From contig CP047423.1 in assembly GCA_014058405.1 (NCBI GenBank), positions 1,488,001 to 1,552,000 on the forward strand: 64,000 nucleotides of DNA, written 5' to 3'. Below the pieces are notes generated by a model. The model was given only the letters and a program-made list of their open reading frames with translations. It searched no databases and was not told the origin of the DNA. The translations under genes and the position numbers were made by a program. Shown here one piece after another: positions 52,390 to 63,314 of the stretch (position 1 is the first letter of the stretch; the number at the start of each line of letters is the position of its first letter). Source of the DNA: Candidatus Nitrospira kreftii (GTDB lineage Bacteria; Nitrospirota; Nitrospiria; Nitrospirales; Nitrospiraceae).

Positions 52390-53655
52390 ATGGCATTGGT
52401 GCTCGCTCTCCTGTGTGGGATCAACATCGCGATTGGCGTCGGCACGGCTTCTGCCGAGCCTGCGGCGCAGGTCTATAGTCTGGACATGATTATCGACCTA
52501 GCCTTGGCGAAGAATCCCGTCGTGTCGTCGGCAGAAGGCAACATTGAGCAACAAAAGGGTCAACAGACGGCGGCCGGTGCCTATCCTAATCCTACGGTGA
52601 CCGGCTTCGGTGGTCATGGAAACCTTCAGGATACAGGTCGGATTGGTATTGGACCGATTCTTGACCGACAGTCGGTCACCGAATACAACGTGATCGTTGG
52701 ACAACCAGTAGAATGGCCGGCGCTGCGGACCGCGCGGCAACGAGTAGCCGATCTCGGCCTCTCAACGGCCAACGTGGGCCTGTTGGAAACTCGATTGAAT
52801 TTATCAGCTCAAGTCAAGGCCGCGTTCTATGACCTCCTATTGGCCCAGCGGGGAGCCGACCTTGCGCGACAGAACTTGGATACTGTCGAGGGTGTGGCAC
52901 GGATCGTGAGGGCAAGGGTCAAATCGGGCGAGGCGCCTCAATTTGAATCCATCAAGGCGGAGGTGGAAGTCCTGAAAGCTGGGCAGCTGTTGGCGCGCGC
53001 GGACAATGTGGTTCGCATCAGCCGTGTGGTCGTCAACACCCTGACCGGTGGCGCGTTGGGGGCAACCTATGCGGTTCAGGGAGAATTTAGGATGGTTCCG
53101 CGGGATTTGCAGATCGAAGGGCTTATGGTCCGCATGATGGACCAGCATCCAGCCATTCAACGCTTGTTGAGCTCGGTGGAGCAATCGGACTGGAAGATCG
53201 AGTTTGAACGGCAGGCTCGCGTACCGACCGTGACCGTCAACGGCAGCTATTGGCGCGAAATTGGACGAGAAGCGGCTCAAGCAGGACTCTCAATTCCTGT
53301 GCCGCTTTGGTATCGGCGCCAGGGAGAAATCGCGGCATCGCTAGGGGCCAAGCGTCGTGAGGAGGCCGAGTTGCTGAGAACGCGTAATGAGTTGGGGCGG
53401 GCTGTCTATCAACATTATCAGGACGTCCGCACCACGGCCGAGTTGATTGAGGTATTCGATAAGGGGTTACTCAAACAAGCGCAGGAGGCGTTACGACTTG
53501 CGCAGTTCAGCTTTCAACAAGGCGCATCGAGTCTGCTGGAAGTGCTCGATGCCCAACGTGTGCAACGACAGATCTTGCTGGATTATGCCGAGGCGAGGCA
53601 CGCGCTGTCCGTCTCACTGGCACGCCTTGAGCAAGCCGTAGGGGGGACACTGTGA
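52390..53655 (+). CDS. Outer membrane channel of a heavy-metal RND system (CzcC/CusC-like)
   Basis: The 421-residue protein has a signal peptide (LALLCGINIAIGVGTASA) and long alpha-helices of the TolC fold. Two repeated halves appear: SLDMIIDLALAKNPVVSSAEGN and LRLAQFSFQQGASSLLEVLDAQRVQRQILLDYAEARHALS. Such proteins form the outer-membrane duct of a tripartite pump. The next gene overlaps its stop (GTGA), and the whole operon reads czcC-czcB-czcA. Confidence 0.85.
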   Translation: MALVLALLCGINIAIGVGTASAEPAAQVYSLDMIIDLALAKNPVVSSAEGNIEQQKGQQTAAGAYPNPTVTGFGGHGNLQDTGRIGIGPILDRQSVTEYNVIVGQPVEWPALRTARQRVADLGLSTANVGLLETRLNLSAQVKAAFYDLLLAQRGADLARQNLDTVEGVARIVRARVKSGEAPQFESIKAEVEVLKAGQLLARADNVVRISRVVVNTLTGGALGATYAVQGEFRMVPRDLQIEGLMVRMMDQHPAIQRLLSSVEQSDWKIEFERQARVPTVTVNGSYWREIGREAAQAGLSIPVPLWYRRQGEIAASLGAKRREEAELLRTRNELGRAVYQHYQDVRTTAELIEVFDKGLLKQAQEALRLAQFSFQQGASSLLEVLDAQRVQRQILLDYAEARHALSVSLARLEQAVGGTL

Positions 53656-54866
53656 ACGCCCGACCAGATTCAACGCCGCCGTCATCGCGATGGGCTCTCC
53701 CAGGTGTCTGTGGGCTTCTGTTTGGGTTGATGGTCCTCGAAGCGGGGTGTGATGGAACGCCGGGAGAGGTCGTAGCCAGTAAGTCGACCGCAGTCGTCTC
53801 CACACCAGGGCTCATCACACTGTCGGTCGAGGAATCGTCACGGGTGGGGCTCGTGGTTCAGCCGGCGGGACTCAGCGACTTTCGGACGCACCGGGATTTC
53901 CCTGCGATCGTTCAGCCCAATCAACACAACATGGCGGAGATTACGACGTTGGTTCGTGGGCGAGTCGTGGACGTGTATGCGGACCTTGGCCAAGAAGTCA
54001 AAGCGAATGCTCCGCTGGCGATTCTCTATAGTAGTGAATTAGGCCTCGCGCAGTCGGCGTATCTCAAGGCTCGGGCGAAACTCCACGTCGCCGAGCAAGC
54101 CTATGGCCGGGCTAAATTCTTGCTGGAGGAAAAGGTCATCGGAGAAGCGGAACTGCAACGTCGACATGCAGAATTGCTGAGTATCCAGGCCGAGGCCAAT
54201 GAGTCGCGTGATCGACTGAAGCTGCTCGGCATGAGTCTCGACGAATTGCGCCGTCTCGACCGGAGTCGTGAAATTCGGTCGGTTGTGCCGATCGTGGCCC
54301 CCTTCGCCGGTCGCATCATCGGGCGCAATCTGACGCGTGGTGAAGTCGTCGAGACCATCGAAAAGCTATTTGTGATCGCGGATCTCTCGGAAGTCTGGGT
54401 GCTCGCCAACATCCCGGAGAAGGATATTTCGTTTGTCCACTCCGTCCATGCGTCCGGTGGTATGCCGGTGGAGGTACAGGTCAATGCCTACCCCAAGGAA
54501 ACGTTCAGGGGCACCATCACGTATGTCGGAGATGTCTTAGATCCCGTGACGCGCACGATGCAGCTGAGGCTTGAATTGCCGAATCCAGACGGACGACTCA
54601 AACCTGAAATGTTCGCCACCATCAGACTCTTTTCAGAATCGCAGCCCGATCGATTGGCGGTACCGGAGACCGCATTGCAACGCGATCAAGGCCGCACCTT
54701 CGTCTTCGTGCAGCGCAGCGCGAGTGAGTATGAAATGCGCGAAGTCCACATCGGGGAATCCAACGGGGCGTTCACCTCCATCCTCGGCGGGCTGAACGAA
54801 GGAGAACCGATCGTGACGCACGGCGCCTTTGTCTTGAAATCCGAGTTGTTGAAGAAACCCGTCTAA
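53652..54866 (+). CDS. RND periplasmic adaptor subunit (CzcB/CusB-like), lipoprotein
   Basis: The 404-residue membrane-fusion protein has a leader ending in a lipobox (VLEAGC), so it is lipid-anchored. It then carries the adaptor domains: FRTHRDFPAIVQPN, RGRVVDVYADLGQEVKANAPLAILYS, a helical hairpin rich in Ala and Glu, and the beta-barrel VVPIVAPFAGRIIGRNLTRGEVVE, TITYVGDVLDPVTRTMQLRLELPN. It links the inner-membrane pump to the outer channel. Start GTG at 53652 overlaps the previous gene; the next gene's ATG overlaps its stop. Confidence 0.9.
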   Translation: MNARPDSTPPSSRWALPGVCGLLFGLMVLEAGCDGTPGEVVASKSTAVVSTPGLITLSVEESSRVGLVVQPAGLSDFRTHRDFPAIVQPNQHNMAEITTLVRGRVVDVYADLGQEVKANAPLAILYSSELGLAQSAYLKARAKLHVAEQAYGRAKFLLEEKVIGEAELQRRHAELLSIQAEANESRDRLKLLGMSLDELRRLDRSREIRSVVPIVAPFAGRIIGRNLTRGEVVETIEKLFVIADLSEVWVLANIPEKDISFVHSVHASGGMPVEVQVNAYPKETFRGTITYVGDVLDPVTRTMQLRLELPNPDGRLKPEMFATIRLFSESQPDRLAVPETALQRDQGRTFVFVQRSASEYEMREVHIGESNGAFTSILGGLNEGEPIVTHGAFVLKSELLKKPV

Positions 54867-57800
54867 TGGTCTCTCGCCTCCTCGACATGTCCCTGCGCCA
54901 GCGGATGCTTGTCATCATCTTTGCAATGATGATGGGCATGGGAGGAGTGTACGCATTTCGAACCATCCCCATCGACGCCTTTCCCGACGTGACCAGTGTC
55001 TTGGTTCAGGTGGTCACGAAGGCTCCAGGTCTCTCGCCGACTGAGGTCGAGCGCCTGGTCACGTACCCGATCGAGCTTCAGCTCGCAGGTGTGCCTGCCC
55101 TCACAGAAATGCGCTCTCTGACAAAGGTCGGTCTGTCGCTCATTACGATTGTCTTTGAAGATTCGATGGACATCAATTTGGCTCGACAATTGGTGCTCGA
55201 ACGATTGCTCGAAGTCGAGGAGCTCCTTCCGTCAGGGGCCGAACCCATGCTGGCGCCGAATAGTACGGGGCTGGGTGAAGTGTATCAGTATTATTTGGAG
55301 GACACACGCGGATCGGCGAGGAGCGAGGAAGCCGAGCACCAGAGTTTGATCGAACAGCGAACGATTCAAGATTGGGTCATTCGCCCTATTCTGAAAGGCA
55401 CGCCGGAAGTCATCGACGTCAATTCGATGGGGGGCTTCGTCAAGCAATATCAGGTGTTGGTTGAGCCTGGTCTGCTTCGAAAATATGGCCTGACTCTCGG
55501 TGAAGTCTTTGACGCGGTGGCCAGAAATAATGCCAATGCCGGCGGCAATATTCTGGAAAAGCATGACGAAAAATATATTGTGCGTGGGATCGGGCTGATT
55601 CGCTCGCTGAGCGACATTGAACGCATCGTCGTCAAGGAAACCGGTGGCACTCCGGTCTACATCTCTGATGTGGCCCACGTGGTGATCGACCATGCGGTGA
55701 GGCATGGGGCCACGGTGCTGAACGGTGAGCGTGAGGTCGTGAGCGGGATCGTGCTGATGTTGCGCGGCGGGAATGCTCGGGATGTCGTCGAAGGCATCAA
55801 AGGGCGCATCGACGACATTCACGCCAAGAATTTGCTGCCGAATGGATGGCGGATTGTCCCGTTTTATGACCGCATCGAACTGATCACGGCGGCACTGAAT
55901 ACCGTCTACAAGTCGCTGGCGGAAGGCGTGGCGCTCGTCGTCGTGGTGTTGTTCCTCTTCCTTGGGAACCTGCGCAGCGCGCTGATTGTCGTCGGGACCT
56001 TGGTCTTGGCGCCACTCGCCACGTTCATTGTCATGGGGCAGATCGGACTGACGGCCAACTTGATGTCTCTGGGAGGATTGGCCATCGCGATCGGTATGAT
56101 TGTGGATGGGTCGGTCGTCGTCGTTGAAAATGTGTATCGTCATCTCTCGCACCATTCGGCTGCCGCCATACCACGGCTTCAGCTTGTCACGCAATCGGTG
56201 AAAGAAGTCGGACAACCGGTCGTCTTTGGGATTCTGATCATTATCTTGGTATTTTTCCCTCTCCTGTCTCTTCAGGGGATGGAAGGCAAGATGTTCAAGC
56301 CACTTGCCTATACCATCATGATCGCGCTGCTCGTGTCGCTCGTGTTATCGCTCACACTATCGCCCGTGCTGTGTTCGTTGGTACTCAAACAGGGGAGTGA
56401 GGAAGATCCGTGGATCGTCCGACAAGCGAAGCGTCTCTATGCTCCGTCCCTTCGATGGGCGCTTGGACATCGGATCGTGGTGCTCAGTCTGGCCATCGGC
56501 GCGCTGATCGGCGCATTGGCCTTAGTGCCGTTTCTGGGAAGCGAATTTATCCCGATTCTGAACGAAGGATCATTGGCTCCACAAACCATTCGTCTCCCGA
56601 GTGTGTCGCTGCCGGCGTCGATTGAGATCGAAAAGCGCATGCAGCGGGCGATCATGGAGTTTCCGGAAGTGGAGATGGTCGTCTCGAAGATCGGACGAAC
56701 CGAGTTGGGGAACGATCCACAGGAACCGAACGAGAGCGATCCGGTCGTTCGGCTTCGGCCGCTGGACCAATGGACGACGGCGAAGACCAGGCCGGAGCTT
56801 GTTCAAAAGTTCCGTGAACGCCTGACCAGTGTGGCAGGAGCGACGTTTCTCATCAGCCAGCCGATCCAACAGCGCGTCGATGAATTGATTTCCGGTGTGC
56901 GCACGGAAGCCACCGTGAAGCTGTTTGGTGAAGATCTGGAGATCCTTCGAGACAAGGCGCAGGAAATCGCCGAGGTGTTGGAAACCGTCCGAGGAGTGCG
57001 GGATATCAAAGTGGAGCAGTTATATGGACAACCGTACCTGACGATTGATGTCGATCGAGGCAAAATTGCTCGGCATGGGATCAATGTGTCCGATGTCCGA
57101 GAGATCATCACGACCGCGATTGGTGGTGAAGCAGCGACACGCGTCTATGAAGGGCAGCAACGGTTCGATCTCATTCTACGGTTTCCAGAACAATATCGGG
57201 ACAGTGTGGAAGCGATCAGCAATATTCGAGTGAGCGATCATTCCGGCGCCTTGATCCCCTTGGCGGACTTGGGAACCGTACAGTTGGAAGAGGGGCCTGG
57301 GCGCATCAGTCGAGAGCAGCTTCAGCGGTATGTGTCGATCGGGTTCAACACATTGGGACGAGATATCGGCAGTCTGGTTGCGGAGGCGCAGCAGAAAATC
57401 GAGCAGCGTGTAGATCTTCCCATCGGGTATAGAGTGACATGGGGTGGATCGTTCGAGAATATGGAACGAGCCATGGCCAAACTGCAAATCATTGTTCCGA
57501 TCACGATTGGATTGATCTTCCTGTTGCTCTACTCGACCTTCAATTCTCTCCGTCAGGCGACCCTGATCATCTTGAATTTACCGTTTGCTATGATCGGAGG
57601 AGTCGTGGCGCTGTGGTTAACGGGAGAGTATCTCAGCGTGCCGGCGTCCGTCGGTTTTATCAACCTATTCGGCGTGGCCGTGCTGAACGGCATCGTGCTG
57701 GTCTCCTACATGAACAAACTCCGCGACGATGGCCATAGCCTGGATGAAGCGGTCACTTCAGGGGCTCTCCTGCGATTGCGCCCTGTACTGATGACCGCCT

Positions 57801-58093
57801 TGGTCGCGCTATTGGGCCTTGTTCCACTGGCCTTTGCGCAGGGGATCGGATCCGAAGTACAGCGACCACTTGCCATCGTAGTCATCGGCGGCCTCGTGAG
57901 TTCGACGCTGCTGACGCTGATCATGCTACCGGTCCTCTATCGCTGGCTGGAAGAGGGTTCGCAGGGAACGACACCCGTCGGCGATTCTCAGAGGAGAGCA
58001 ACAGGTGACTCGCATGATTCCGTCATGGTTACGCCTCTGGGCGACGGTGAGGCGAGACTTCCCCACCGTCCGGGCAGCGTACCGTCGACGTGA
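54866..58093 (+). CDS. Heavy-metal RND efflux pump (CzcA/CusA-type)
   Basis: The 1075-residue inner-membrane protein has the RND layout: 12 TM segments, two large periplasmic loops and the N-terminal IPIDAFPDVT. The TM4 segment reads GGLAIAIGMIVDGSVVVVEN; CzcA-type Zn/Co/Cd pumps start this motif with Asp (DFG...DGA...EN), whereas here the first position is Ala. The later Asp and the final Glu are kept. The pattern resembles CusA-like or less-studied HME subgroups, so the metal is not settled. The gene is coupled to the adaptor by a 1-base overlap. Confidence 0.92.
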   Translation: MVSRLLDMSLRQRMLVIIFAMMMGMGGVYAFRTIPIDAFPDVTSVLVQVVTKAPGLSPTEVERLVTYPIELQLAGVPALTEMRSLTKVGLSLITIVFEDSMDINLARQLVLERLLEVEELLPSGAEPMLAPNSTGLGEVYQYYLEDTRGSARSEEAEHQSLIEQRTIQDWVIRPILKGTPEVIDVNSMGGFVKQYQVLVEPGLLRKYGLTLGEVFDAVARNNANAGGNILEKHDEKYIVRGIGLIRSLSDIERIVVKETGGTPVYISDVAHVVIDHAVRHGATVLNGEREVVSGIVLMLRGGNARDVVEGIKGRIDDIHAKNLLPNGWRIVPFYDRIELITAALNTVYKSLAEGVALVVVVLFLFLGNLRSALIVVGTLVLAPLATFIVMGQIGLTANLMSLGGLAIAIGMIVDGSVVVVENVYRHLSHHSAAAIPRLQLVTQSVKEVGQPVVFGILIIILVFFPLLSLQGMEGKMFKPLAYTIMIALLVSLVLSLTLSPVLCSLVLKQGSEEDPWIVRQAKRLYAPSLRWALGHRIVVLSLAIGALIGALALVPFLGSEFIPILNEGSLAPQTIRLPSVSLPASIEIEKRMQRAIMEFPEVEMVVSKIGRTELGNDPQEPNESDPVVRLRPLDQWTTAKTRPELVQKFRERLTSVAGATFLISQPIQQRVDELISGVRTEATVKLFGEDLEILRDKAQEIAEVLETVRGVRDIKVEQLYGQPYLTIDVDRGKIARHGINVSDVREIITTAIGGEAATRVYEGQQRFDLILRFPEQYRDSVEAISNIRVSDHSGALIPLADLGTVQLEEGPGRISREQLQRYVSIGFNTLGRDIGSLVAEAQQKIEQRVDLPIGYRVTWGGSFENMERAMAKLQIIVPITIGLIFLLLYSTFNSLRQATLIILNLPFAMIGGVVALWLTGEYLSVPASVGFINLFGVAVLNGIVLVSYMNKLRDDGHSLDEAVTSGALLRLRPVLMTALVALLGLVPLAFAQGIGSEVQRPLAIVVIGGLVSSTLLTLIMLPVLYRWLEEGSQGTTPVGDSQRRATGDSHDSVMVTPLGDGEARLPHRPGSVPST

Positions 58094-58127
58094 TGGCGGA
58101 ACCAGGAGAGAGGGGGGCGACACAACT

Positions 58128-58490
58128 ATGAAGATGTGGAATGTGATGATGGGAGTGGTGTTGAGCCTCGCTCTTCTCTCCGTGGTCGGACCGCGCGAGA
58201 TTGCGGCACAGACGGATATTGACTCACGAAATGCCGACCACGTCAGTGGAAAACTGATTTTTGACCGGCATTGCGCAGGTTGTCATGGGCCAAAGGGTAA
58301 AGGGGATGGCTTTATGATGTTGGGGCCGGACCCGGCGAATCTTACGCGGCCGTCGACTACGCAAAAGTCCGATATGGCGCTGCTGAAAACCATCCATGAA
58401 GGAAAGTTCACCATGCCAGCCTGGAAACTTCGCTTGTCTGAGGAGGACAGTCGAGCCGTGTTGGCCTATATCCGGACACTCACGAAATAG
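58128..58490 (+). CDS. Periplasmic c-type cytochrome
   Basis: The 120-residue protein has a signal peptide (MMGVVLSLALLSVVGPREIAA) and a single heme motif CAGCH, with KGKGDGFMMLGPDPANL and a distal Met in FTMPAWKLRLSEEDSRAVLAYIR. This is a class I monoheme cytochrome. It sits 35 bases after the RND pump gene, so the two may be cotranscribed. The ATG at 58128 has GAGAGGGGGG upstream. Confidence 0.85.
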   Translation: MKMWNVMMGVVLSLALLSVVGPREIAAQTDIDSRNADHVSGKLIFDRHCAGCHGPKGKGDGFMMLGPDPANLTRPSTTQKSDMALLKTIHEGKFTMPAWKLRLSEEDSRAVLAYIRTLTK

Positions 58491-59131: not shown

Positions 59132-61484
59132 TCAACGCGCTCGCGTTGACGATTTACGGTCGGGGATCGATTTCACTGCTGCCTGGATGGCCTGATACAA
59201 TTCTTCCACTGGTGCTTCTTTCGTGAGCAGGGTGACGGCACCCGCTTGGATCATGGCCTCCCGATGTCCCCTGTCCGCATTCACCGACAGTCCCACCACG
59301 ACCATGTCAGGAAAGTTCCCCTTGATCACGGTGGTCGCTTCGATGCCGTTGAGTTGTGGCATGTTCATGTCCATCAGCACGACAGTGGGCTGAAGCGTGT
59401 GCGCCAGCGTGATCGCTTCCGCGCCATTCGCCGCCTCGCCGATGACGTGAATATCCTGATACGCTTCCAGCATCGTGCGGAGGCCTTGACGAACCATGGC
59501 ATGATCATCCACGAGCAACAGACGAATCGTGGATGGATCGCCGGGAGCGGGATCCGCTTGCGAACGACGAGACGGAACCGGCCAATCACCACGTCGGACG
59601 CCTTGGGGTGCCACACGTTCAGTCAACGGCAACACCAGGCTCGCGCTCGTTCCCTTCTTGGGCGCTGAATGAATTTCAAACGAGCCGCCTAGGGCCCGCA
59701 TGCGTTCCTGGATACTATATAACCCAAACTTGGACGAGATCTCTTCATTCGGCAGTCCCGCTTCCGTTGCCGCGGTACCGTCGAATCCCTTCCCTTCGTC
59801 CGTCACGGTGATGCGGAGCTGGTCCATGCGCATGTCCATCGTGAGTGTGGCCTGTCCAGTACCGGCATGTTTGGCCGAATTGATCAGCAGCTCGCGCACC
59901 GATTGAAAGAGTAACACCCGTTGATCCTCCGGCAGGTTGATCAGGTGGTCATCGGGTACCTGGACGGTCACAGTGTGCGCATGTTTGGTCTTCATATACT
60001 CAGCGAGCCACGTGAGGCTGGCAGTCAGACCCTGATCGCGCAGGACTGGTGGACAGAGTTCCGCCACCAAGGTGCGGCTGTAGCTCAGCGCATCGGACAA
60101 GATCTCATCGACTTTTTGCAGGACCGCGTCCCAGGCAGGCTCACCGCGTGCGCGCTGCTTGCCCTGGCCGATCGTCATTTTCCCGACGATCAACATCTGC
60201 TGCAGATGGTCGTGCAGTTCAGTCGCCAGCCGCTTCCGTTCGCGCTGCTCGGCCAGGTTCAATTCTTTCGTCAGCGCGCGCAGGCGTTCCTGGGACTGCA
60301 CCAGATCGCGCGTGCGGTCCTCGACGAGCGCTTCGAGCTCCTGGGTCGATCGTTCCATACGCAACTGCGCTTCCTTTCGCTCCGTGATGTCGAGATTGAC
60401 CCCGACCATGCGGATGGCCCGGCCATTCGCATCACACAGCGTTTTGGCCTTCGCGTAGATCCAGCGCACGGCCCCATCCGGTCGCGCGATGCGATACTCG
60501 AAGGCGGAGGCCGTCGTGGGATCGTTCAACGACCGTTGACAACCAGCGTGAGCCGCTGCCAGATCGTCCGGATGCACGAGACGTCGCCAGGCCTCGGCCG
60601 TGCCGTCATAGCCTCCCACTGGCAGACCCCACATCCGTTCCAGTTCAGGGGACCAGACGCCTGTTTGTGCGAGGATATCCCAATCGAACACCCCGATGTT
60701 GGCCGCCGATTGAGCTAACCGCAGCCGGGCTTCACTCGCCTGAACGGCCGCTTCCAGTTTCAAGCCGGGGGTGATATCCAGCGCAATCCCACTTAGGGCA
60801 TAGGGTCGGCCCTGCTCGTCCCACAACAAGAACTTTTTGACCATCGAGGTATGGACACCGTCCGCTTGCGGGACCCGTTCCTCCACGGTCAGCAATCGTT
60901 CCGATTCCCACACCTGTTGGTCGTTGGCGATGAATTGCGCGGCCAGTTCCGGGGAAAACAGGTCGCGGTCCGTACGGCCAAGGGCCTGTTCGCGAGTCAC
61001 GCTCAACACCCGGGCGCACTCCTCGTTCATGAAGAGATATCGTCCGGCCGGATCCTTGATGAACATGGCCGCCGGCGCGTGGTTCAAGATCGATCGCCAT
61101 CGCGCCTCACTCTCGCGCAGGGTATCCTGGGTTCGATTGATACGGTCGATCAGCATCGTAATCGCCACGGTTTCCACGGCAAAGACACCGAGACTGACCC
61201 AGTAATAGCCAGCAGCGAGATGAAATTCATACAACGGCTCAATGAAGAGCAGGTCGGCGGCAAGCGTTGACAGTACGGACGCCAGGAGGCCCGGCCCCAC
61301 CCCCCCCGCGCCAGGCCGCGAGCATGACGGCCAAGAAGAACGTCAGGAAGGGAAACCCTGTTGGAATGATCGGGCGCAGGGCGACTCGGACACCCGTCGC
61401 GAGCGCGACGAGCAGAACTGCGAAGCCGTATCGAATAAGCCGGCTCTCGCCGAACCGGTTTGAGGGGAAGACGTTCAGCTGCAT
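59132..61484 (-). CDS. Hybrid histidine kinase-response regulator (DUF4118-PAS-PAS-HisKA_3-REC), frameshifted
   Basis: The reading frame is split at a run of eight G residues (minus strand, positions 61300-61307); removing one G rejoins it. The restored order is a four-helix DUF4118-like membrane sensor (GFAVLLVALATGVRVAL, FPFLTFFLAVMLAAW, LLASVLSTLAADLLF, YYWVSLGVFAVET), PAS (WRSILNHAPAAMFIKD), PAS/PAC (WSPELERMWGLP) and a HisKA_3 phosphoacceptor helix (QRERKRLATELHDHLQQML). An HATPase (ELLINSAKHAG, DEGKGFDG) and a C-terminal receiver (LLLVDDHAMVRQGLRTMLE, LMDMNMPQLNG, phosphoacceptor Asp) complete it. No DNA-binding output domain is present. It faces a paralogous hybrid kinase on the other strand. 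Confidence 0.8.
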
Positions 61485-61713
61485 CTGAGCCTTCAGTCCG
61501 GAAATTCCAGCACAGGTCGAGTGCGGTATGATAAGGCGATCGTGCGGAGGAGTCCACCTGTCCGTGAACCGTCTTCGGCGCATTCCACTTTGACCGATTG
61601 TTTACCGGCACAAAGCTAGTTTGGCCTGCTGAGTCCAACCACCCCTAGTATTCAAAAATCCCCTGTGGCATCCTTCCGCCCACCTCTCCCTTTCATTCTG
61701 CATGGAGGCACGT

Positions 61714-63314
61714 ATGATGTCAGAGACTCCCAGCACGTTTCTGCCGCACGGGCAATGCTTTCTATGGGACCCGAGTGTGTTATGGCTGAATGTGTCATCT
61801 GACGTGATCATCACCACTGCGTATTATCTGATCTCGGCGGCGTTGTTTTACTTCCTTTATAAACGCCATGATGTTCCGTTCAGATGGATGTTCATGCTGT
61901 TCGGCCTGTTCATTTTTGCCTGTGGCACGACGCACCTCATGCATGTGTGGACCGTCTGGCATCCGGACTACAGGGGAGAAGGCATCGTAAAGGCTGGGAC
62001 TGCGCTGCTGTCGATCTCCACTGGCCTGTTGCTGGTTCCCTTGCTTCCTCGAGCGATGGCCTTGCGGACCCCTCAAGAGCTGGAGGCGTTGAATGCGAGC
62101 CTGCGTGAGGTGTTGTGCGAGCGGCAGAAGGCGGTCGAGAATCTACAATCCTCCGAGGCGATGCTCATCCGTCGCAGCGAAGAATTGATTCAGCAACGAC
62201 ACCGGCTGCGGGAAATGGCCTCGCAGCTGACGTTGATCGAGCAACGCGAGCGACGACGACTGGCCACAGACCTCCATGATTACCTCGCTCAGATGCTCGT
62301 GGTATGCCGACTGAAGGTGTCCCGAGCCAAGAGGGCCCTTACCCCCCGCTAGTCGTTCTGTTAGATGAGCTCAACACCGACCTCGACCAATGCCTGCAAT
62401 ACACTCGGACGCTGGTCAGGGAGTTATGCCCCACGGCGCTGTACCAGACCGGTCTCGTCGGCGCGCTTCAGCAACTTGCTCTGGAATTCGAAAAATATGA
62501 TCTGCATATCATGGTCGTTGCCGAAGATCCCAATATTCCGCTGAGTGAGGATACGGCCATCTTGGTGTATCAAACCGTGCGGGAGCTGCTGTTCAATGTC
62601 TTGAAACACGCGAAGACCAATCGAGCCCAGGTGAGGGTCAGCTCAACACCTCAGCATGCCGTGGAAGTGGTCGTGGAAGATAATGGAAGCGGGTTTGATC
62701 CAGCAATCCTTCTGACCCGGTCCGCTCAAGGGTTTGGACTTCTCAGTATCCGGGAACGCATAGAAAGTCTGAACGGGCTCTTCGATGTCCGGTCAGCGCC
62801 CGGTGTCGGGACGACGACCACAATCGCGCTGCCCGTCACATCTGCCCCTGATGCTAGACCGTCTTCGACCGGCGGTGGCGTCACGATGGCGGTGGAGCCG
62901 GGTGGATCCGTGGCAACGTCGTCGAGTGAAGGCGCGATCACCGTCCTGCTGGTGGACGATCACGCGATCGTGCGACAAGGCTTGCGGTCCGTTCTGGAGG
63001 CCTATCCAGACATAGCCATTGTGGGTGAATCGTGTAACGGAGAAGAGGCGGTCAATGCCGTCCACCATCTTCGCCCATCGATCGTGGTGATGGACATCAA
63101 CATGCCGAAGATGGATGACATCGCAGCGACTCAGCACATCACCTCACAGTATCCGGACGTCGTCGTGGTGGGATTGTCCGTCAATGCGTGTGACGATGCA
63201 ACAACAGCGATTCTGACTGCCGGGGCTGTTGCCTTGATTGCGAAAGAGGCTGCGGTCGATCAATTGTATCCAACGATGCAGGATGCTCTTCGCGTAAAAC
63301 GTGCCAACATATAA
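61714..63314 (+). CDS. Hybrid histidine kinase with ethylene-receptor-like sensor, frameshifted
   Basis: Residues 1-125 are a three-helix domain closely matching the ethylene-binding domain of plant ETR1: Asp30, Tyr37, Ile40, Cys70 and His74 (ACGTTHLMHVW) stand at the same spacing as ETR1 Asp25, Tyr32, Ile35, Cys65 and His69, the copper- and ethylene-binding residues. The kinase that follows has a HisKA_3 helix (QRERRRLATDLHDYLAQML), HATPase (ELLFNVLKHAKTNRAQ, EDNGSGFDP) and a receiver (LLVDDHAIVRQGLRSVLEAY, VVMDINMPKMDDI). The frame breaks at six C (62342-62347); adding one C rejoins it. The ATG at 61714 has GGAGG upstream. It is divergent from the DUF4118 kinase. Confidence 0.85.

Follow-up and report, generated by a model that had tools for sequence, protein, structure and literature searches.

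A putative copper-site sensor kinase with an ethylene-receptor-type domain and a broken reading frame in Candidatus Nitrospira kreftii

The residues that the plant receptor ETR1 needs to bind ethylene are said to have been listed by Wang et al. in 2006 as Asp25, Tyr32, Ile35, Pro36, Ile62, Cys65, and His69. ETR1 binds ethylene via Cu(I) at Cys65 and His69, with one copper per monomer (PMC6586836), and Asp25 sets the position of His69 and forms a pair with Lys91 (PMC11819568). Pro36 is among the seven residues essential for binding (PMC6586836; PMC11819568). Mutating it abolishes binding by ETR1 (cited in PMC6586836), and Never-ripe tomato, which is insensitive to ethylene, carries Pro36Leu (PMC6727826). 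Bacterial members of the ETR1_N family outside the cyanobacteria have already been described with a wide range of output domains (PMC7700396, PMC11819568). One of them, AzoEtr1 of Azospirillum, binds ethylene and keeps all seven residues (PMC11819568), so a member in a non-plant, non-cyanobacterial organism, as in the original prediction, is not in itself new. A literature search returned no report of ETR1_N in Nitrospira; this is weak evidence, as the main survey (Papon and Binder 2019) lay outside its scope.

The window (the whole 64,000-nucleotide stretch of Candidatus Nitrospira kreftii DNA that was analyzed) encodes one such domain (Table 1). Positions are those of the window throughout, and residues are counted from the ATG at 61714. 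Pfam ETR1_N matches over profile positions 2-97 of 97 (E = 2.9e-37, bit-score cut-off 27), and this is the sole match in the genome. The match is far beyond a chance pattern and the domain is real, which bears out the homology to the ETR1 transmembrane domain that had been claimed. A check for a better, unrelated membrane-domain match found none: the next Pfam match has an E-value of 0.19, and Pfam searched up to E = 1 gave no rival membrane family beyond ETR1_N.

Asp30, Tyr37, Ile40, Cys70, and His74 lie at the ETR1 spacing (7, 3, 30, 4), exactly as predicted, and the serine foreseen at the Pro36 position is Ser41. Equivalents of ETR1 Ile62, Ala31, and Lys91 are present too, beyond the residues originally listed. 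The Cys/His pair is thereby accompanied by the Asp25, Tyr32, Ile35, and Lys91 equivalents by which family membership was judged. We aligned 14 bacterial sequences, namely the window protein and 13 members from Nitrospira-group relatives, Azospirillum (including an A. brasilense domain of the AzoEtr1 type), cyanobacteria, and other proteobacteria. Asp30, Tyr37, Ile40, Ile67, Cys70, His74, and Lys93 are invariant in all 14.

An AlphaFold2 model (mean pLDDT 91) places helices at residues 20-50, 57-82, 86-116, and 120-160, and the first three correspond to the three transmembrane helices of the ETR1_N family. The invariant residues form one stripe per helix (30, 37, 40, and 44 on helix 1; 63, 66/67, 70, and 74 on helix 2), a pattern that, in the model, is as expected of a functional core. 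A PDB fold search with the model gave no match below E 0.4.

Table 1. Features of the ETR1_N locus and its surroundings in window coordinates
Feature	Position	Strand	Details
Heavy-metal-efflux RND operon, then c-type cytochrome	52390-58490	+	Profile matches: OEP, CusB/CzcB-like adaptor, CusA/CzcA-family pump (TIGR00914, 1157 bits)
Divergent hybrid kinase, split	59132-61583	-	DUF4118-PAS-PAS-HisKA_3-HATPase-REC; DUF4118 halves in ORFs 61239-61583 and 59132-61300
C8 homopolymer at frame break of divergent kinase	61300-61307	.	
ORF1	61702-62352	+	216 aa (212 aa from ATG 61714): ETR1_N, coiled coil, first half of HisKA_3
ETR1_N three-TM ethylene-receptor-type domain	61777-62064	+	PF25487, 128.7 bits
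Asp30, Cys70, and His74 codons	61801-61803; 61921-61923; 61933-61935	+	
Continuous helix / coiled-coil linker, TM3 to HisKA_3	62065-62247	+	AlphaFold2 helix 120-160, pLDDT >90; model ends at 62196, inferred beyond
HisKA_3, first part	62248-62340	+	Profile positions 1-31 of 68; phospho-acceptor His codon 62275-62277
ORF2	62304-63314	+	Rest of HisKA_3, HATPase_c (62559-62840), receiver (62943-63269); no output domain
C6 homopolymer at frame break	62342-62347	+	ORF2 in -1 frame relative to ORF1

The kinase half is divided. ORF1 ends within HisKA_3 at a TAG codon (62350-62352), and with the break at 62342-62352 the hybrid kinase core and receiver do not share one frame. The fusion to a HisKA_3-type kinase and a receiver that had been described is thus two ORFs in this assembly, but it is intact in a relative of the same genus (G059), which encodes a 565-aa ETR1_N-HisKA_3-HATPase_c-REC protein in one frame. 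The original prediction was right that the HisKA/GAF arrangement of plants is lacking: Pfam finds no GAF domain and HisKA_3 in place of HisKA, and the locus does not have the plant-type ETR1_N-GAF-HisKA architecture. The H-box His, the N, G1, and G2 boxes, and the receiver Asp and Lys can all be read across the two ORFs. When the G059 protein is searched against the window by tblastn, the alignment follows ORF1 to residue 224 and then switches to ORF2, with 68% identity in the portion covered by ORF1 and 42% in that covered by ORF2. Between ORF2 and G059, differences at codon positions 1, 2, and 3 run at 0.44, 0.33, and 0.65. Codon constraint on ORF2 therefore persists, and the break would be recent or artefactual. 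Judged from the reading frames, it looks as the loss of a single base from a C7 run would make it.

The neighboring divergent kinase is broken as well: one ORF holds positions 1-46 of its DUF4118 profile and another holds 44-106, and the two adjoin at a C8 run. In G059, a second HisKA_3-HATPase-REC kinase lies within ~7 kb, with a core 56% identical to that of the divergent kinase in the window; the two loci therefore have in common a further kinase of this type in the vicinity. A coding-potential scan of 464 kb of the genome found 10 candidate frame breaks, of which only two fall on G/C runs, both at this locus, and the same 464 kb holds 83 G/C runs of at least 6 bases. A generally poor assembly was rejected as the cause on this count. 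Paired breaks in adjacent genes would be unexpected for random errors and favor somewhat a real co-inactivation, but a local sequencing error may also be the cause.

The ETR1_N domain is rare in the genus. A search of 79 genomes found it only in this genome (G000), G059, and G084, and in the whole order it occurs in 13 of 236 genomes. The proteins of G000, G059, and G357, which all combine the domain with HisKA_3 and a receiver, group together as one clade at 100/99 support. Within it, identity is 61-67% over ORF1 and 41-50% over the faster-diverging receiver and ATPase, and the conserved part is the sensor domain. The G357 protein (L057:9011-10354) runs from HisKA_3 directly into the receiver, its HATPase gone. 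The kinase half may thus be dispensable in two of the three relatives, given the missing HATPase there and the broken frame here.

In other members of the order, as well as in G316 from the same class, ETR1_N is often found alone in proteins of ~200 aa; a membrane PAS histidine kinase is then encoded directly downstream by its own gene, which sometimes overlaps the stand-alone one (L029:8460-11089, L060:9265-12530, L058, L061, L062/L081, and L071-L074). These pairs are apparently split receptors. In G038 (L028:10081-11037), the domain is otherwise clearly ETR1_N and the site is lost, with Asp replaced by Asn, Tyr by Phe, Pro by Val, Cys by Val, and His by Gln; it is a natural negative control. 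A distant three-TM domain scoring near the ETR1_N cut-off (21-30 bits) is found at the N-termini of Nitrospirota signaling proteins (L041, L042, L044, L047, L048, L050, L055, and L056). There HGxxE aligns with the CGxxH copper motif, which suggests a different metal or ligand.

The window protein keeps six of the seven ethylene-essential residues, with Ser for Pro36, and the Ser is found in all three clade genomes (3/3). Pro is also replaced in other Nitrospirota (by Ala or Thr), in a cyanobacterial copy from Kovacikia, and in a Deinococcus copy, all with the Cys/His pair kept. The copper site is therefore better conserved than the ethylene-specific set. Copper-dependent sensing of a small gas or hydrocarbon had been proposed for this domain, and the copper part of that proposal stands on the retained Cys/His site and Asp/Lys pair. 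From these residues copper-dependent sensing is likely. Ethylene is possible as the ligand but specifically doubtful because a clade-wide Ser replaces the essential Pro36.

On balance, we regard the gene as probably encoding an ETR1_N-family sensor kinase that detects a small molecule by means of Cu(I), its frame interrupted within HisKA_3 at the C6 run, either through a recent one-base frameshift or through an assembly error. Cu(I) would be bound within the three transmembrane helices by Cys70 and His74, both on helix 2, and Asp30 from helix 1 and Lys93 from helix 3 would lie beside the copper site. A small ligand arriving at the copper could alter helix packing, and the change would pass through the coiled coil to the NarX/DesK-type HisKA_3-HATPase core. 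The core would then phosphorylate itself and, in turn, its own C-terminal receiver. A further partner would have to take over the signal because the receiver has no output domain. As written in the sequenced genome, the product would be a sensor stub of 212-216 aa only.

On a minority reading, the protein is a true ethylene receptor that binds ethylene through Cu(I), and bacterial members tolerate Ser in place of Pro36. This reading can draw on the six retained residues and on the natural variability of the position, since Ser, Ala, or Thr occurs in Kovacikia, Deinococcus, and several Nitrospirota together with Cys/His. AzoEtr1 shows that a bacterial member can bind ethylene, but it has all seven residues (PMC11819568), Pro36 mutation abolishes binding in ETR1 (PMC6586836), Pro36Leu makes tomato insensitive (PMC6727826), and our literature search found no ethylene-binding member with a residue other than Pro at this position. 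It is unlikely that the clade's domain instead detects Cu(I)/Ag(I) as such, or another ligand, in the service of the adjoining heavy-metal-efflux RND operon (52390-58093, upstream of the ETR1_N gene). The copper site is intact where a residue needed for ethylene is lost, and in the window as in G357 a CusA/CzcA-family RND operon adjoins the ETR1_N kinase. Such pumps are common, however, and those of the window and G357 are not orthologous: they share 44% identity, against 53-59% between the window pump and three paralogues in its own genome. The G059 stretch that was read shows no pump, and the genes beside the plasmid-borne relatives encode response regulators instead of pumps. A conserved metal-efflux link was accordingly rejected, as other loci do not have such neighbors either, and a functional link between operon and receptor is suggestive at most. 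One CusA/CzcA paralogue, 59% identical to the window pump (G000:C1:2173625-2176786), aligns across two in-frame stops and is possibly another broken gene in this genome.

The frame breaks allow two further readings. Both divergent kinases may truly have lost their frames, leaving a decaying pseudogene pair and a system dead in this strain, an outcome that we consider conceivable rather than probable. Both genes break at G/C runs and are the sole two such frameshift candidates in the scanned sequence despite its many runs, and G357 has lost its HATPase. On the other side, ORF2 is stop-free over 336 codons with codon constraint present, and homopolymer miscounts, the commonest error of some sequencing methods, can mimic such breaks. 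Programmed or phase-variable frameshifting at the C6 and C8 tracts, which would switch both kinases on and off, is very improbable. G/C tracts do sit at the frame breaks of two divergent signaling genes, but a C6 tract is short for phase variation, and a conserved programmed shift is unlikely because neither G059 nor G357 breaks at this place.

ETR1_N relatives also occur in phages. Maribacter phage Molly_1 encodes one (QQO97550.1, L116:1432-2301; 60.9 bits), and the best viral structural match of our AlphaFold2 model, the top BFVD entry, shares its length of 289 aa and is apparently the same protein. A further 18 IMG/VR loci carry relatives, many of them stand-alone proteins of ~125 aa; the phage proteins scanned score 55-96 bits, the L126 stand-alone protein 66.6 bits. 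Seventeen of the 18 loci, and Molly as well, retain the equivalents of all four of Tyr32, Ile62, Cys65, and His69 (in L134 the Tyr32 region is unaligned), and Asp25, Pro36, and Lys91 vary. Six contigs place the gene in a lysis cassette (L126:4953-5333, L127, L129, L130, L131, and L133:3808-4176). In five related ones the gene order is GH108 endolysin, 157-aa membrane protein, ETR1_N, and small one-TM protein; the sixth, L133, has a phage lysozyme in place of the endolysin, and Molly has an amidase. Neither a PHROG family search with the phage ETR1_N proteins nor a literature search for reports of them in lysis cassettes gave a match. The protein seems to be a membrane component of lysis cassettes, with an ethylene-receptor fold, that has not been described before; it may represent a new type of phage lysis protein and is probably more novel than the original kinase finding.

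The contrast between the Ser clade and AzoEtr1 bears on whether the copper site alone suffices for ethylene or something else is sensed, and the same question arises from the other side for the phage proteins, in which the copper site is retained without any kinase. Our tentative suggestion is that ETR1_N serves generally as a membrane module with a copper site, older than ethylene perception and wider in use. The Pro36Ser clade would then sense something other than ethylene, and phages would use the fold, with Cys/His invariant, in lysis cassettes.

We assign the locus to the ETR1_N domain family, as a variant distinguished by the Pro36Ser clade and the HisKA_3/REC output. We do not classify it as an ethylene receptor because a defining feature of those, the complete set of seven residues, is not found. 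With plant ETR1/ERS1 (PF25487), it shares the three-TM N-terminal domain and the equivalents of Asp25, Ala31, Tyr32, Ile35, Ile62, Cys65, His69, and Lys91. Unlike them, it has Ser for Pro36, no GAF after the N-terminal domain, HisKA_3 rather than HisKA, and a frame broken in the assembly; the Cys4/Cys6 pair is missing, with a single Cys aligned at Cys6. AzoEtr1 is likewise a bacterial, non-cyanobacterial ETR1_N protein with the D/C/H/K residues and the same 40-residue Asp-Cys spacing (PMC11819568), and the window domain is 50% identical to an A. brasilense ETR1_N domain. In AzoEtr1, however, the set of seven residues is complete, a PAS domain is present, and the response regulator is separate, whereas the window protein has Ser36, no PAS domain, and a fused receiver. 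SynEtr1 of Synechocystis (slr1212) is also a bacterial ETR1_N histidine kinase, but it is a light receptor as well and has a different output (PMC11819568). The HisKA_3 and HATPase_c catalytic core is that of NarX/DesK-type sensor kinases, from which the window protein differs in its ETR1_N sensor and in being a hybrid with a NarL-type receiver that carries no DNA-binding domain.
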